The notes beneath the pieces are model-generated. The model had not been told where the DNA came from. It did no database searches and saw nothing but the letters and a program-made list of their open reading frames with translations. A program made the translations under genes and the position numbers. Positions 11,256 to 16,526 of a DNA stretch of 64,000 bases are shown here, piece after piece. Each line of letters begins with the position of its first letter. Within the stretch, counting starts at the first letter, position 1. This DNA comes from Mesorhizobium sp. B2-1-1. Its GTDB lineage: Bacteria > Pseudomonadota > Alphaproteobacteria > Rhizobiales > Rhizobiaceae. Where the stretch lies: NCBI RefSeq assembly GCF_006442975.2, contig NZ_CP083954.1, forward strand, positions 3,107,501 through 3,171,500, read 5' to 3'.

Positions 11256-12584
11256 ATGCGTTTGTCGCGCTATTTCCTGCCCATCCTCAAAGAGAATCCG
11301 CGCGAGGCGGAGATCGTCTCGCATCGGCTGATGCTGCGCGCCGGCATGATCCGCCAGCAGGGGCAGGGCAGTTTTTCCTGGCTGCCGCTGGGCAAACGGG
11401 TCCTGGACAAGGTCTGCCAGATCATCCGCGAGGAACAGAACCGCGCCGGCGCGCTGGAAATCCTGATGCCGACCATCCAGTCGGCCGACCTTTGGCGCGA
11501 AAGCGGCCGCTATAACGACTACGGCAAGGAGATGTTGCGCATCAAGGACCGCCAGGACCGCGACATGCTTTACGGCCCGACCAACGAGGAAATGGTCACC
11601 GAGATCTTCCGCGCCTATGTAAAGTCCTACAAGGACTTGCCGCTCAACCTCTACCACATCCAGTGGAAGTTCCGCGACGAGGTGCGGCCGCGCTTCGGCG
11701 TCATGCGGAGCCGGGAATTCCTGATGAAGGATGCCTACTCCTTCGATCTCGACTTCGAAGGCGCGAGAGCCGCCTACAACAGGATGTTCGTGTCCTATCT
11801 CCGGACCTTCACCCGCATGGGCCTACAGGCGATCCCGATGCGGGCCGACACCGGTCCGATCGGCGGCGATCTCAGCCATGAATTCATCATCCTGGCCGAC
11901 ACCGGCGAGAGCCAGGTGTTCTGCCATCGCGATTATCTGTCGCTCGGCGTGCCCGGAGCCAACACCGATTTCTCCAACGACGCCGAGATATCAGGCATCG
12001 TCAAGACCTGGACGACGCCTTACGCCGCGACCGACGAAATGCATGACGAAGCGGCCTGGGCTGAGGTTCCCGACAGCGACAAGGTTTCGGCGCGCGGCAT
12101 CGAAGTCGGCCATATCTTCCATTTCGGCGAGAAATACTCCAAGCCGATGGGCGCCAAGGTGACCGGGCCCGACGGCAAGGATCATTTCGCTTCCGGCGGT
12201 TCCTACGGCATCGGCCCGTCGCGGCTGGTTGCGGCGATCATCGAAGCCAGCCATGACGAGAACGGCATCATCTGGCCGGAAGCGGTGGCGCCGTTCGACA
12301 TCGGCCTGATCAACATGAAAGCCGGCGATGCCGATTGCGACCGTGTCTGCGATGAACTCAACGCAGCTTTCACTGCCGCCGGCAAGGATGTGCTCTATGA
12401 CGACACCGACCAGCGGCCGGGCGGCAAGTTCGCCACCGCCGACCTGATCGGCCTGCCCTGGCAGGTGATCGTCGGACCGCGCGGCGTGGCCGCCGGCGAG
12501 GTCGAGATCAAGAACCGCAAGACCGGCGAGCGCGTGACGCTGCCGATCGCCGATGCGAAAAAACGCTTCGGTGCCGCCGCATGA
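11256..12584 (+). CDS. proS: Prolyl-tRNA synthetase (short alphaproteobacterial form)
   Basis: This class II aminoacyl-tRNA synthetase charges tRNA-Pro with proline. The 442-residue length matches the alphaproteobacterial form, which lacks the inserted editing domain of the E. coli enzyme. Visible features are the N-terminal [13 protein letters not shown], motif 2 ([26 protein letters not shown]), motif 3 ([17 protein letters not shown]) and the C-terminal anticodon-binding domain (from about residue 345). The ATG at 11256 was chosen because the protein family begins here. The stop overlaps the start of the lolC gene by 4 bases. Confidence 0.96.
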
Positions 12585-13867
12585 GCGAGGCGGCGGCAGC
12601 GAGACCGGCAGGCGCCGGACCGTTTTCCATCTTCGAACGCACGGTGGCGTGGCGCTATCTGCGCTCGCGACGCAAGGAGACGGTGATCTCGGTCATCGCC
12701 TCGATCTCCTTCCTCGGCATCATGCTGGGAGTGGCGACGCTGATCGTGGTGATGGCCGTCATGAACGGGTTCAGGGCCGAGCTGCTCACCCGCATCCTCG
12801 GCGTAAACGGCCATCTGATCGTGCAGCCGCTGGATTCGCCGCTTGAGGACTATGCGCAGGTCGCCGGCCGCATCAACGGCGTGGCCGGCGTGAAATACGC
12901 CATTCCGCTGATCGACGGCCAGGTGCTGGCGCAAGGTAATGTCGGCGGCGGCTCCGGCGCGCTGGTGCGCGGCATCAGGGGCGAGGACCTGGGCAAGATT
13001 GCCATCGTCGCCAACAACATCAAGCAGGGCTCGATCGCCGATTTCGACACGGGCGAGGGCGTCGCCATCGGCAAGCGCATGGCGGAGAATCTCGGCCTGG
13101 CGCTCGGCGACACGATCACGCTGATCTCGCCGGACGGCGACGTGACGCCGCTCGGCACGACGCCGCGCATGAAAGGCTACAAGATCGCGGCGATCTTCGA
13201 AGTCGGCATGTCGGAATATGACGCCTCCATCGTCTACATGCCCTTTTCCGAGGCGCAGCTCTATTTCAACATGGATGGGCGAGCCCAGACGATCGAGATC
13301 TATGTCGACAATCCCGATGATGTCGACGCGCTGAAACCGAAGGTGGAAGAGGCGGCGCAGCGACCCATCGACCTCGTCGACTGGCGGCAGCGCAACGAGA
13401 CCTTCTTTTCCGCCCTGCAGGTGGAGCGCAACGTCATGTTCATGATCCTGACCCTGATCGTTCTGGTGGCGGCGCTCAACATCATCTCCGGGCTGGTCAT
13501 GCTGGTGAAAGACAAGGGGCACGACATCGCCATCCTGCGCACCATGGGCGCCTCGCGCGGCGCCATCCTGCGCATCTTCCTGATGACGGGCGCGGCGATC
13601 GGCGTCACCGGCACCATCGCCGGCGTGCTGCTCGGCGTGGTCATCTGCCTCAACATCGAATCGATCCGCGAGTTCTTTTCCTGGATGACGGGCAAGGTGC
13701 TGTTCAATCCGGAGCTCTATTTCCTCAGCCAGTTGCCGGCGAAGATGGATCCGCGCGAGACGACCTATGTCGTCATCATGGCGCTCGGCCTGTCCTTCCT
13801 GGCGACGTTGTTTCCGGCATGGCGGGCGGCCCGCCTCGATCCGGTCGAAGCGCTGAGGTACGAATGA
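12581..13867 (+). CDS. lolC: Lipoprotein-releasing system transmembrane protein (LolC/LolE family)
   Basis: This inner-membrane permease of the LolCDE ABC transporter extracts lipoproteins for transfer to the periplasmic carrier LolA. The 428-residue protein has one N-terminal membrane helix (about 38-62), a large periplasmic MacB-like domain, and three C-terminal helices in the FtsX domain (about 285-425). The family start [16 protein letters not shown] is present. Only one LolC/E gene is present beside lolD, so the transporter is probably a homodimeric LolF-type permease, as in many non-enteric bacteria. The start overlaps the proS stop and the stop overlaps lolD. Confidence 0.93.
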
Positions 13868-14547
13868 TGGCGCAGGCCATTATCGAGTTGAAGAGCGTCG
13901 AGCGGCACTATGTCCAGGGGCCGCGCAAGCTCACCATTCTGAACGGTGCGGACTTCTCGCTGAAGCGCGGCGAGATGGTGGCGCTGGTGGCGCCGTCCGG
14001 CACCGGCAAATCGACGCTGCTGCATACGGCAGGGCTCTTGGAACGGCCCGACGCCGGCGACGTGATTCTCTCCGGCCGGGCCTGCGGCCGGCTATCCGAT
14101 GACGAGCGCACCTCGATCCGCCGCAACGATGTCGGCTTCGTCTACCAGTTCCACCATCTGCTGCCGGAGTTTTCGGCGCTGGAAAACATCATGATGCCGC
14201 AGCTCATCAAAGGGCTGCCGCGCAAGGAGGCGGCCGAGCGCGCGGCGCAGCTGCTCGACTACATGCAGATCGGCAAGCGCGCATCGCACCGGCCGTCCGA
14301 ACTGTCGGGCGGCGAGCAACAGCGCGTGGCAATCGCACGCGCGGTCGCCAATGCGCCGCTGGTGCTGCTGGCGGACGAGCCCACCGGGAATCTCGACCCG
14401 GTCACTGCCTCCTATGTGTTCGAGGCGCTGGAGGCATTGGTGCGGCAATCCGGCCTCGCGGCGCTGATCGCCACCCACAATCACCAGCTGGCAGCGCGCA
14501 TGGACCGGCGCGTCACCCTGGCCGAGGGCAAGGTGGTGCCGCTCTAA
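13864..14547 (+). CDS. lolD: Lipoprotein-releasing system ATP-binding protein LolD
   Basis: LolD is the ATPase of the lipoprotein export transporter. The 227-residue product has Walker [10 protein letters not shown] (43-51), the Q-loop in [17 protein letters not shown], the signature [14 protein letters not shown], and Walker B with [11 protein letters not shown]. The start is the first of two adjacent ATG codons (13864 or 13867), overlapping the lolC stop. An alanine replaces the usual first glycine of Walker A, a minor variation. The gene-poor region after it marks the end of this operon. Confidence 0.95.
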
Positions 14548-15024
14548 GGGGTACCTCGATGTCCGCTGCGAGATTGGGTTCAACCTTAACAACGTCCAGC
14601 GAGATTTCCGCGGGTTTAGTTTGCCTTCGGGGATACTGATCCCTCCGGGAGTCCTCTGGATCAGAACCGCCAGTGAGCCTTCAGTGCGATCAGGGCGGAA
14701 GAGATCGCGGTCATCACCAGGATGAGCAGCCAGGGTTACAAAGTTGCGCGAGAGGCGCCACCGGCGGCCTTGCCTCATGCGCTTTCGCCAGCGATCAGCT
14801 TGATTGGCGCCTTGGTGTTGCCTCACGTCATCACTCGGCAGTCGTAGCTTACCCACTATTGTCTCGACTGAGATTGAGGGCAGCAGGCGCTCATCCCATA
14901 CGCTAACTGACGATAGCGTCGCCGACATCTTCCTGACCTGTTGATAGGTCCCGCGCCGTCAACCTTTTCTTAACCCTGCCGGTTTGATCGCTCGAAAATT
15001 CCGGCTGCGGACGGATGCCGCTCG
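14548..15024. other. Gene-free stretch, possibly with a degraded gene remnant
   Basis: No intact gene was found in this 477-base region. On the minus strand, near 14741-14664, there is a short frame encoding PWLLILVMTAISSALIALKA and ending HWRF-stop. It reads like the last membrane helix of a transporter, but it is preceded immediately by a stop. This suggests a decayed gene; it is too short to name. Confidence 0.35.
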
Positions 15025-15059
15025 TTGACTTTGAAACAAAATTAGAACAAATTGCGAAC
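15025..15059 (+). promoter_or_regulatory. LexA (SOS) box and promoter of the 28-residue peptide gene
   Basis: GAAC-AAATTGC-GAAC at 15045-15059 exactly matches the alphaproteobacterial LexA operator (GAAC/GTTC-N7 direct repeat). An AAAC at 15034-15037 extends it upstream with the same 11-base period, giving a near-triple repeat. TTGACT at 15025-15030 is a plausible -35, with the operator covering the weak -10 region (15048-15053). LexA bound here would block the polymerase. The next start codon is 22 bases beyond the box. Confidence 0.72.
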
Positions 15060-15081
15060 ATATCAACAACAGGAGAGAGTT

Positions 15082-15168
15082 ATGACCGATCTGGTTCAGG
15101 ATGTCATCTCGCTGGTTTGCATGAGCACCTTCCTCATTTCCATGGCGATCTGGATCGGAGCCATGTGA
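15082..15168 (+). CDS. Putative SOS-induced 28-residue inner-membrane peptide (SidA-like by context)
   Basis: This small frame starts with ATG at 15082, 2 bases after a strong AGGAGAGAG ribosome-binding site (15071-15079), and ends at TGA 15166-15168. The product has a short acidic N-terminus (MTDLVQDV). A single hydrophobic segment (ISLVCMSTFLISMAIWIGAM) then runs to the C-terminus, so it should insert into the inner membrane. The LexA box directly upstream predicts DNA-damage induction. Size, topology and regulation resemble Caulobacter SidA, a 29-residue LexA-controlled inhibitor of FtsW/FtsN, but I have not aligned the two. The function in cell division is inference. Confidence 0.65.
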   Translation: MTDLVQDVISLVCMSTFLISMAIWIGAM

Positions 15169-15278: not shown

Positions 15279-16526
15279 GTGTCGCCCATCGTCGCCGCCT
15301 TCCTCGTGGCCAGCAATCTAGGGCTGATTTTTCTCCTGATGAGCGTGCCGCTTGGTTTGCGCACAATCAGGCTCAGCCGCACGGTCGCGGCCGACCGGCA
15401 GCGTCTGTGGCAGGCGCTGTGGCCGCTCGGGAGCAATGCCGGCTGGTCCGGCGAAATCCTCTCGGCAGAGATGCTGGGCGAGGGAGTGGTCCGCACCAGA
15501 ATGTCCTGGGAGGGCCGGGACGGCCTGCCGATCGAACGCAAGGCCCTGCTCGAGAATGTCGTGCATGGCAGGTGCTTTTCGATGCGCGTCATCGAGGACA
15601 CGGCGCTCGATCCGTCTTTCTGGGCGCATTATCGGGAAACCGCGCAGTTGGTCTCGATTGGCGAGGCCACCCGGGTTACGCTCACCCAGACCGACCGTTA
15701 CCGCGGCGTGGCCTTCCTGGCGTTCCGCTATTTCGCCATGCGCCGCGAACTCGCCAAGCTGGATGGCTGGGCCAGGACAGGGCGGTATCGCAAGGGCGGC
15801 TGGTTCGAACATCCGCTGAGTCAGCTCGGCTTCGCCGCTCTCTCGGCATTCATCCTGTGGCCGTTCTTCGGGCTTCACCGCGGCGGGCTTGCTCTGGCCG
15901 CGATCCTGACTTCCGTTGTCGCCCTGCACGAGCTCGGCCACATGGCGGCATTCCGCCTGATGGGCCACCGCAGGGCGCGCATGATCTTCATCCCGCTGCT
16001 CGGCGGCCTCGCCATTGGCGGCCGGCCCTATGACAGCCGTTTCGAAGTTGCGTTCGTGGCGCTGATGGGCGCCGGGTTCTCTGCTTTCCTGGTGCCGTTG
16101 GCGATGATGGGCAGCACGTTTGCAAGCGCGGAAGGGCACTGGCTTGCCGCGACATTGCTGGCGACACTGGCGGGCTGTGCTGCCCTGTTCAACATCGCCA
16201 ATCTGGTGCCGGTGTGGAAATTCGATGGCGGCCAGGTGCTGCGCCAGATCTGCCCGGGGCCGGTCGCGCTGGCGCTGGCCTCCTTCTTCCTGCTCTCGGC
16301 GTTCCTGGCGCTTGGCTGGCGGGCCGGCTTTTCCATCGGCTTTCTGCTCGCGGCCGGCGCGGTCTTTGCAATCCTCAGCCTTCTGACAGCGGGCAGCGGG
16401 GTGAGGCCGCGCCACGAACTGAAGCCGATCCGCACGGCCGACCGTTTCGTCATCGCCGGCGCGCTGCTGGCGGTGTTCGTCATCCACGGTTATGGAGTGC
16501 TCTGGGCGTCGGCACGGCTGATCTGA
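15279..16526 (+). CDS. M50 (site-2-type) intramembrane metalloprotease with an N-terminal SRPBCC-like domain
   Basis: The 415-residue protein begins with one membrane helix (about 3-25). A soluble region follows (about 35-155) that resembles an SRPBCC/polyketide-cyclase fold. The second half is polytopic and carries HELGH (217-221) and, about 95 residues later, NLVPVWKFDGG with D316, the zinc-site pair of S2P proteases. The start is GTG at 15279 with AGGAG at proper spacing. Substrate and pathway are unknown. The soluble domain might sense a ligand or present substrate. It sits directly after the SOS peptide gene but probably has separate control. Confidence 0.75.
   Translation: MSPIVAAFLVASNLGLIFLLMSVPLGLRTIRLSRTVAADRQRLWQALWPLGSNAGWSGEILSAEMLGEGVVRTRMSWEGRDGLPIERKALLENVVHGRCFSMRVIEDTALDPSFWAHYRETAQLVSIGEATRVTLTQTDRYRGVAFLAFRYFAMRRELAKLDGWARTGRYRKGGWFEHPLSQLGFAALSAFILWPFFGLHRGGLALAAILTSVVALHELGHMAAFRLMGHRRARMIFIPLLGGLAIGGRPYDSRFEVAFVALMGAGFSAFLVPLAMMGSTFASAEGHWLAATLLATLAGCAALFNIANLVPVWKFDGGQVLRQICPGPVALALASFFLLSAFLALGWRAGFSIGFLLAAGAVFAILSLLTAGSGVRPRHELKPIRTADRFVIAGALLAVFVIHGYGVLWASARLI

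Follow-up and report, generated by a model that had tools for sequence, protein, structure and literature searches.

Downstream of lolD in Mesorhizobium sp. B2-1-1 lies a frame of only 28 codons for a hydrophobic peptide, preceded by a LexA-type box. Is this frame a gene at all and, if so, does it belong with SidA, the division inhibitor of Caulobacter, as the first-pass annotation of this DNA had proposed? These questions were addressed by a computational analysis of the 64-kb stretch of DNA that includes the frame, referred to here as the window, and of the corresponding loci in other genomes and in viral contigs.

The 28-codon frame and its promoter

The elements named by the first-pass annotation (TTGACT, the boxes, the ribosome-binding site and the ATG-TGA frame) are all in place, position for position (Table 1). 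The "third AAAC repeat" that it had mentioned is also present, but is better described as the decayed first box of an overlapping pair. Two overlapping perfect boxes, with three GAAC units in step (e.g., GAACAAAATTAGAACAAAATACGAAC), are found in 19 of 30 Mesorhizobium loci, and in the window the first of these units has decayed to AAAC. The -10 element of the window promoter is weak and the promoter scan detects none. A terminator scan identified no intrinsic terminator 3′ of the frame, and an Rfam scan of the locus returned no match over the gathering score and one sub-threshold match. A hairpin past the stop codon, spotted by eye, was discarded, not being kept among the 30 Mesorhizobium loci.

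Table 1. Features of the peptide locus and its neighbours, in window coordinates
Feature	Position	Strand	Basis
lolC, upstream neighbour	12581..13867	+	open reading frame; also neighbour in relatives (tblastn), synteny kept
lolD, upstream neighbour	13867..14547	+	open reading frame; synteny kept
-35 hexamer TTGACT	15025..15030	+	read in the sequence
First LexA-type box AAACAAAATTAGAAC, one base decayed	15034..15048	+	sequence and Mesorhizobium loci
Second LexA-type box GAACAAATTGCGAAC, perfect GAAC-N7-GAAC	15045..15059	+	motif scan
Ribosome-binding site AGGAGAGAG	15071..15079	+	well kept across 30 Mesorhizobium loci
Predicted single-helix membrane peptide of 28 residues, assigned to the SidA superfamily	15082..15168 (ATG to TGA, TGA included)	+	homology, selection, profiles
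M50-type membrane protease with Polyketide_cyc2-like N-terminal part	15279..16526	+	downstream neighbour, Pfam

The encoded peptide, MTDLVQDVISLVCMSTFLISMAIWIGAM, has a best 19-residue Kyte-Doolittle mean of 2.13 (SidA: 1.92). From this hydropathy the 28-aa product would insert into the membrane as a single predicted membrane-spanning helix. The one relative labelled with an organism in a source is a 28-aa "hypothetical protein" from Mesorhizobium plurifarium, 89% identical.

By six-frame search, all 61 Mesorhizobium genomes (its own included) contain the peptide, the worst E being 1e-9. In the family as a whole, the single sequence gives matches at E<=1 in 155 of 297 genomes and 67 of 109 genera, the weakest of which are noise. 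In other families of the order, the same type of single-sequence six-frame search found nothing beyond noise in 40 genomes (two at E 0.7-0.95); the combined profile later showed a divergent peptide in one of these 40, G094. Among 25 distinct Mesorhizobium frames, variable columns per codon position number 5, 1 and 18 of 28 each. Comparison of codons in pairs shows 1686 synonymous and 478 non-synonymous differences, where about 22% of unconstrained single-base changes would be synonymous. Spread and substitution pattern together indicate that the 28-codon frame is a real gene under purifying selection. Particular residues stand out among the 90 distinct 28-residue peptides that have a box: F17 occurs in all (90/90), position 7 is D in 89 and position 10 is S in 83. 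Lys and Arg are absent from 85 of the 90, and the N-flank is acidic, with a net charge of -2 in 73.

Across 30 loci, conservation sets in at the -35 element, extends through the stop codon and drops on either side of this region, bar a short block further upstream. This second conserved block of the Mesorhizobium loci, CAACCTTTTCTTAACCCTGCCGG, occupies window positions 14956-14980, about 105-126 nt 5′ of the start, and includes a TTAACC which we take to resemble a CtrA half-site.

The box itself requires more caution. GAAC-N7-GAAC occurs once in the 64-kb window, with 1.73 occurrences expected, and 158 times genome-wide compared with 180 for the backward control motif. Since the window count is at chance level and the genome count is not above the backward control, the box proves nothing alone, and judging the locus by it was abandoned. 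By the following counts, what lifts it above chance is its conservation. A perfect box lies within 120 nt 5′ of the start in 121 of 133 Rhizobiaceae loci, counts which are not independent since the loci are related (92 of 103 per distinct peptide), versus 4 of 2713 control windows from the same loci. These 133 loci remain from 135 examined after L125 and L135, with no start codon in place, were dropped; the locus counts used 30 of the 61 Mesorhizobium genomes, and 80 Rhizobiaceae loci were hand-picked from the family listing, with many near relatives skipped. The 12 box-less loci comprise one cut by a contig end, five in which the box at the usual position has one or two decayed bases and six extra copies, which are counted within the 133. 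In 93 of the 121 loci a -35-like hexamer, TTGAC (84) or TTGCA/TTGCG (9), begins 7-11 nt upstream of the first perfect box, and in 77 of those 93 the distance is exactly 9 nt. Both the frame and the box, whose lack of conservation in relatives would have refuted the proposal according to the first-pass annotation, are kept (61/61 genomes; box in 121/133 loci).

That a chance open frame happens to stand next to a chance motif is a reading to which we give virtually no weight. A single box is indeed expected by chance in 64 kb, but frame, box, spacing and synteny are all conserved, and the 61 of 61 genomes together with the codon-substitution pattern refute coincidence as far as sequence can.

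This type of box also adjoins uvrA, ssb, parE-like, yifB/comM and imuA-like genes in the same genome, which we take to be SOS-type genes. These represent 5 of the 16 proteins scanned around 20 box flanks, picked by eye for A/T-rich cores from the listed part of the 158 places. The imuA-like neighbour scores 47.8 bits, below its cut-off of 150, and the parE-like neighbour 491 bits, also below its cut-off, its frame being cut by the end of the stretch. The other 11 neighbours are not SOS-type (methyltransferase-like, TPR, lnt, GNAT and seven without a match). The LexA control supposed by the first-pass annotation is supported, at the level of sequence, by the conserved promoter box and by the same motif beside these five genes; from the box, the peptide gene would bind LexA and be induced by DNA damage. 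Separately, a consensus-like box, GAACATAAAGAGAAC, precedes a GNAT-type acetyltransferase gene (L147, G000:C1:3436411) about 4 kb beyond this genome's dnaE.

Gene order in Mesorhizobium and its relatives

The first-pass annotation had suggested that the position after lolD and next to dnaE might be conserved. This holds in many relatives but not in the genome under study, where dnaE lies elsewhere. Within 1.5 kb upstream of the peptide and on the same strand, lolD is found in 25 of 30 Mesorhizobium loci and 68 of 103 other Rhizobiaceae loci. In this latter set, dnaE follows the peptide in 23 loci and both genes flank it in 16. In B2-1-1 the lolD flank is present and the dnaE flank absent, dnaE being located about 306 kb away (G000:C1:3429165) with no box within 1.5 kb upstream.

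In the window, an M50-type protease gene stands where relatives have dnaE. Of the Mesorhizobium loci, 25 of 30 have this gene after the peptide, as do 10 of 103 other Rhizobiaceae loci. The product matches Pfam PF02163 with 37.6 bits (cut-off 27.2), and its N-terminal stretch gives 19.9 bits with PF10604, below the cut-off of 27.4. This gene is not part of the peptide system. Since the resident dnaE is distant and box-less and the M50 gene follows the peptide, box and peptide stay together independently of dnaE.

An order-level profile search of 347 genomes provided 15 weaker matches (L183-L197, E 3e-5 to 0.01), 13 of them from other families and 13 directly 5′ of dnaE. A perfect box occurs within 75 nt upstream in 12 of the 13 dnaE-linked matches, the one without being L188, while the two remaining matches, L184 and L197, have neither dnaE nor box. 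In 9 of the 13 dnaE-linked loci, lolD and dnaE stand on both sides of the peptide; L186, for instance, shows the full series of lolC, lolD, box, peptide and dnaE. Where relatives keep dnaE, it mostly begins about 160-450 nt from the peptide and in the same direction (743 nt in L185). Judged by this synteny, the lolC-lolD-peptide-dnaE arrangement appears ancestral.

Relationship to SidA of Caulobacter

Four Caulobacter genomes, reached through the S-layer protein RsaA, were inspected at the equivalent place. All four carry a 29-codon frame between a GAACATCTTGTGAAC box, located 64 nt before the ATG, and dnaE, and the four frames encode close variants of one peptide. The one stretch which extends far enough (L203) includes lolC and lolD within 1.5 kb upstream of dnaE (1/4 genomes). 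The frame scores 74 bits with NCBIfam NF033228 (div_inhib_SidA; cut-off 35), and NCBI labels its close relatives in Caulobacter and Phenylobacterium "cell division inhibitor SidA". The Caulobacter frame that immediately precedes dnaE is SidA itself. Published work describes SidA as an inner-membrane protein of 29 residues which blocks division through FtsW and gives two-hybrid signals with FtsW and FtsN (PMC4211646, in part), and sidA deletion is reported to relieve lexA filamentation in Caulobacter (PMC12700426, in part).

The two peptides are alike in length (28 versus 29 residues), in their single hydrophobic helix and in the LexA-type box upstream. Downstream of SidA stands dnaE, as it does after the peptide in rhizobial relatives, and lolD lies upstream in the one Caulobacter stretch long enough to include it. 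Their group profiles are similar in register from Met1. There are also clear differences. SidA has R3 and R6, whereas the N-flank of the rhizobial peptides is acidic and mostly free of Lys and Arg. The rhizobial C-terminus is of the WIGAL type rather than WMMC, and the W19-M20-C22 segment of SidA is absent. The rhizobial boxes overlap, the window peptide is not beside dnaE, and it scores nothing with NF033228 (no match at E<=10, and no other family).

Comparison of single sequences is not significant. When three full-length SidA sequences are scored with the Rhizobiaceae profile, 118, 577 and 638 of 2000 shuffles do as well, and for the window peptide alone, scored with the SidA profile, the number is 853 of 2000. 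The best local SidA stretch performs better, with 12-38 of 2000 shuffles reaching its score, or 13-49 of 2000 when the order-level peptides are added to the profile. Homology to SidA on single sequences was abandoned, groups and intermediates being needed. Using hhalign, 19 close SidA sequences compared with the Rhizobiaceae group gave P 0.0012, and a SidA group of nine, including the class-level L321, L324 and L327, gave P 3e-5. The same nine sequences gave P 1.2e-6 with intermediates from other orders and P 1.3e-6 with those from other Hyphomicrobiales (same order). The two sets of intermediates compared with each other gave P 1.3e-8, and the order-level group compared with the Rhizobiaceae P 4e-12. 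The alignments begin at or near Met1 and are unshifted, and six group comparisons were each set against 200 column permutations, none of which reached the real score. An N-terminal register of D/E7, A/S10 and F17 is common to the SidA and rhizobial groups. One intermediate, L280 (KDIAALISVGAFIWVVST), ties to both sides, its score being reached by 0 of 2000 shuffles for SidA and 1 of 2000 for the Rhizobiaceae.

The combined profile, run class-wide over 372 genomes, identified 26 non-self genomes at E<=0.05. All 18 matches at E<=3e-4, five of them profile seeds and some others close to seeds, have both a box and a downstream dnaE; none of the eight at E>=0.004 has either. The majority of genomes of the class give no match, and the gene is either far from universal there or out of reach of this search. 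With the Rhizobiaceae profile alone, the class-wide search gave 22 non-self genomes at E<=0.1, and none of the nine inspected has a box or a fitting frame.

We also examined 70 dnaE-upstream stretches from the class, consisting of the 30 best matches and 40 others hand-picked from a listing of 289 genomes for family spread and genome size. Ten of the 70 contain a sense-orientation box within 900 nt, and in all ten a short one-helix hydrophobic frame occurs 20-130 nt after the box, compared with 335 of 5417 control positions taken from these stretches. Four stretches with only an opposite-orientation box show no such frame. Certain boxed frames preceding dnaE show no tie to the rhizobial profile (their scores are reached by 1235 of 2000 shuffles for L245, 1781 for L306, 255 for L293 and 59 for L299), and those of L245 and L306 may reflect replacement or fast change. 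L306 compared with SidA has its score reached by 34 of 2000 shuffles.

The proposal of a rhizobial SidA counterpart is thus upheld by locus, box, length and group profiles and not by NF033228. Since this family is not matched, we refer to the peptide as a divergent branch of the SidA superfamily at what appears to be SidA's ancestral locus, an assignment which is supported by profile similarity that holds for the group and not for the window sequence alone.

Proposed function, rival readings and mobile copies

We consider it likely that the gene product is a member of the SidA superfamily which inhibits cell division under SOS control. In an undamaged cell, LexA would occupy the overlapping boxes between the -35 element and the start codon and keep the gene off. 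DNA damage would lead to RecA-dependent cleavage of LexA, freeing the promoter, and the 28-residue peptide would be made; these two steps draw on the box and on general knowledge of the SOS response. The peptide would then insert into the inner membrane as one helix and, like SidA, most likely bind the complex for septal wall synthesis (FtsW and perhaps FtsN/FtsI). Held inactive, the FtsW/I/N complex would delay septum synthesis until LexA re-accumulates and repair is done. Both the FtsW/FtsN target and the effect on division are suggested by analogy with SidA.

Other small inhibitors provide a context for this proposal. Caulobacter DidA likewise acts on the FtsW/I/N complex as a small membrane inhibitor with a single helix; it differs in having 71 residues, in being SOS-independent and in binding FtsN (PMC4211646, in part). 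YneA, ChiZ and SosA of Gram-positive bacteria, likened here by description, are SOS-controlled membrane division inhibitors, of which YneA and ChiZ differ in carrying a LysM domain (PMC13396833, in part). The same source reports that YneA binds TM7 of FtsW and presents AlphaFold 3 models, "not of high confidence" according to its authors, which place SidA, ChiZ and SosA on FtsW too; it argues, partly from those models, that FtsW is the common target of such peptides (PMC13396833, in part).

Could the peptide, while belonging to the superfamily, have changed its target, to FtsN only (like DidA) or to another membrane protein? In place of the helix half with SidA's invariant W19-M20-C22, the rhizobial peptides have A22-W24-I-G-A, and their flank is of opposite charge, so that the contact could differ from that of SidA; the N-terminal register, however, is kept, and we regard a change of target as unlikely. 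Somewhat removed from this is the idea of an SOS-induced membrane toxin which lowers membrane potential or kills and has no divisome target. TisB is a small SOS membrane peptide which, unlike the rhizobial peptides with their near absence of Lys and Arg, contains these residues. Size class and LexA control are alike, and DinQ illustrates that SOS peptides can have other targets (PMC3567139, in part). However, the profile link to SidA and the common lolD/dnaE locus argue against a TisB- or DinQ-like toxin, and the near-invariant D7 and F17 suggest a specific protein partner. The Rfam scan, which was the whole search for an antisense RNA partner, gave none over the gathering score. We judge the toxin quite improbable.

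The short, same-direction spacing between peptide and dnaE in relatives that keep dnaE would also suit an upstream frame or leader peptide through whose translation the following gene (dnaE or, in the window, that for the M50 protease) is regulated. Against this, the next gene varies between dnaE, the M50 gene and neither while promoter and peptide remain paired, and the amino-acid sequence itself is under selection. We rejected a leader function, which is highly improbable, in view of the changing downstream gene and the box-less dnaE of this genome. The division inhibitor remains the preferred reading.

There are also additional copies of the peptide. Five Rhizobiaceae genomes include six box-less extra copies (L065, L105, L114, L115, L117 and L127) located among phage- or plasmid-like frames, surroundings which were judged mostly by eye. 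In a viral collection, 11 contigs (L336-L346) encode SidA-type peptides, MRDLLHDIASFVAVSTFIATFAVWAGYLAEKV and kin, and none has a box within 300 nt upstream. Since L336 and L117 are identical DNA, at least some of these viral contigs are prophages that were called in genomes of isolates. In all four viral contigs tested, an exonuclease VIII-type gene is the next long one, followed by a RecT-type gene in three and by a protein of unknown function in L345. By hhalign, the phage group compared with the Rhizobiaceae gives P 5e-13, reached by 0 of 200 permutations. Compared directly with the SidA group it gives P 0.006, reached by 3 of 200, which was not counted as a match; the phage group joins the SidA superfamily via the Rhizobiaceae group only. 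No match was found in INPHARED phages with the phage-type peptide as query or in PLSDB plasmids with the window peptide, and a first scan of the viral contigs with the Rhizobiaceae alignment gave 15 pattern matches, none of them a relative. The phage lambda Kil peptide, likened by description, blocks division and is part of an operon with phage recombination genes; it differs in acting on FtsZ with ZipA (PMC3961180, in part). Since Kil too sits among recombination genes, a Kil-like role for the viral copies is a reasonable guess.

The open-licence literature, a scope in which subscription papers were mostly not included, yielded no SidA outside Caulobacter and no rhizobial SOS division inhibitor. 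On balance we favour the view that SidA is the tip of an SOS checkpoint extending across several alphaproteobacterial orders, which has stayed at a single ancestral locus (lolCD-sidA-dnaE) while changing too rapidly to be annotated, and that rhizobial phages took the peptide, lost its LexA switch and set it beside RecE/RecT-type genes, from where it would stop host division as Kil does. The locus provides an example of a putative checkpoint gene of fewer than 30 codons which can escape annotation and, where it is labelled in a source, is called a "hypothetical protein". A common family would offer one testable gene per genome, together with a natural mutational series (conserved D7, S10 and F17, and a variable C-terminal half) for mapping the FtsW contact, and the phage-borne versions offer material for comparison.
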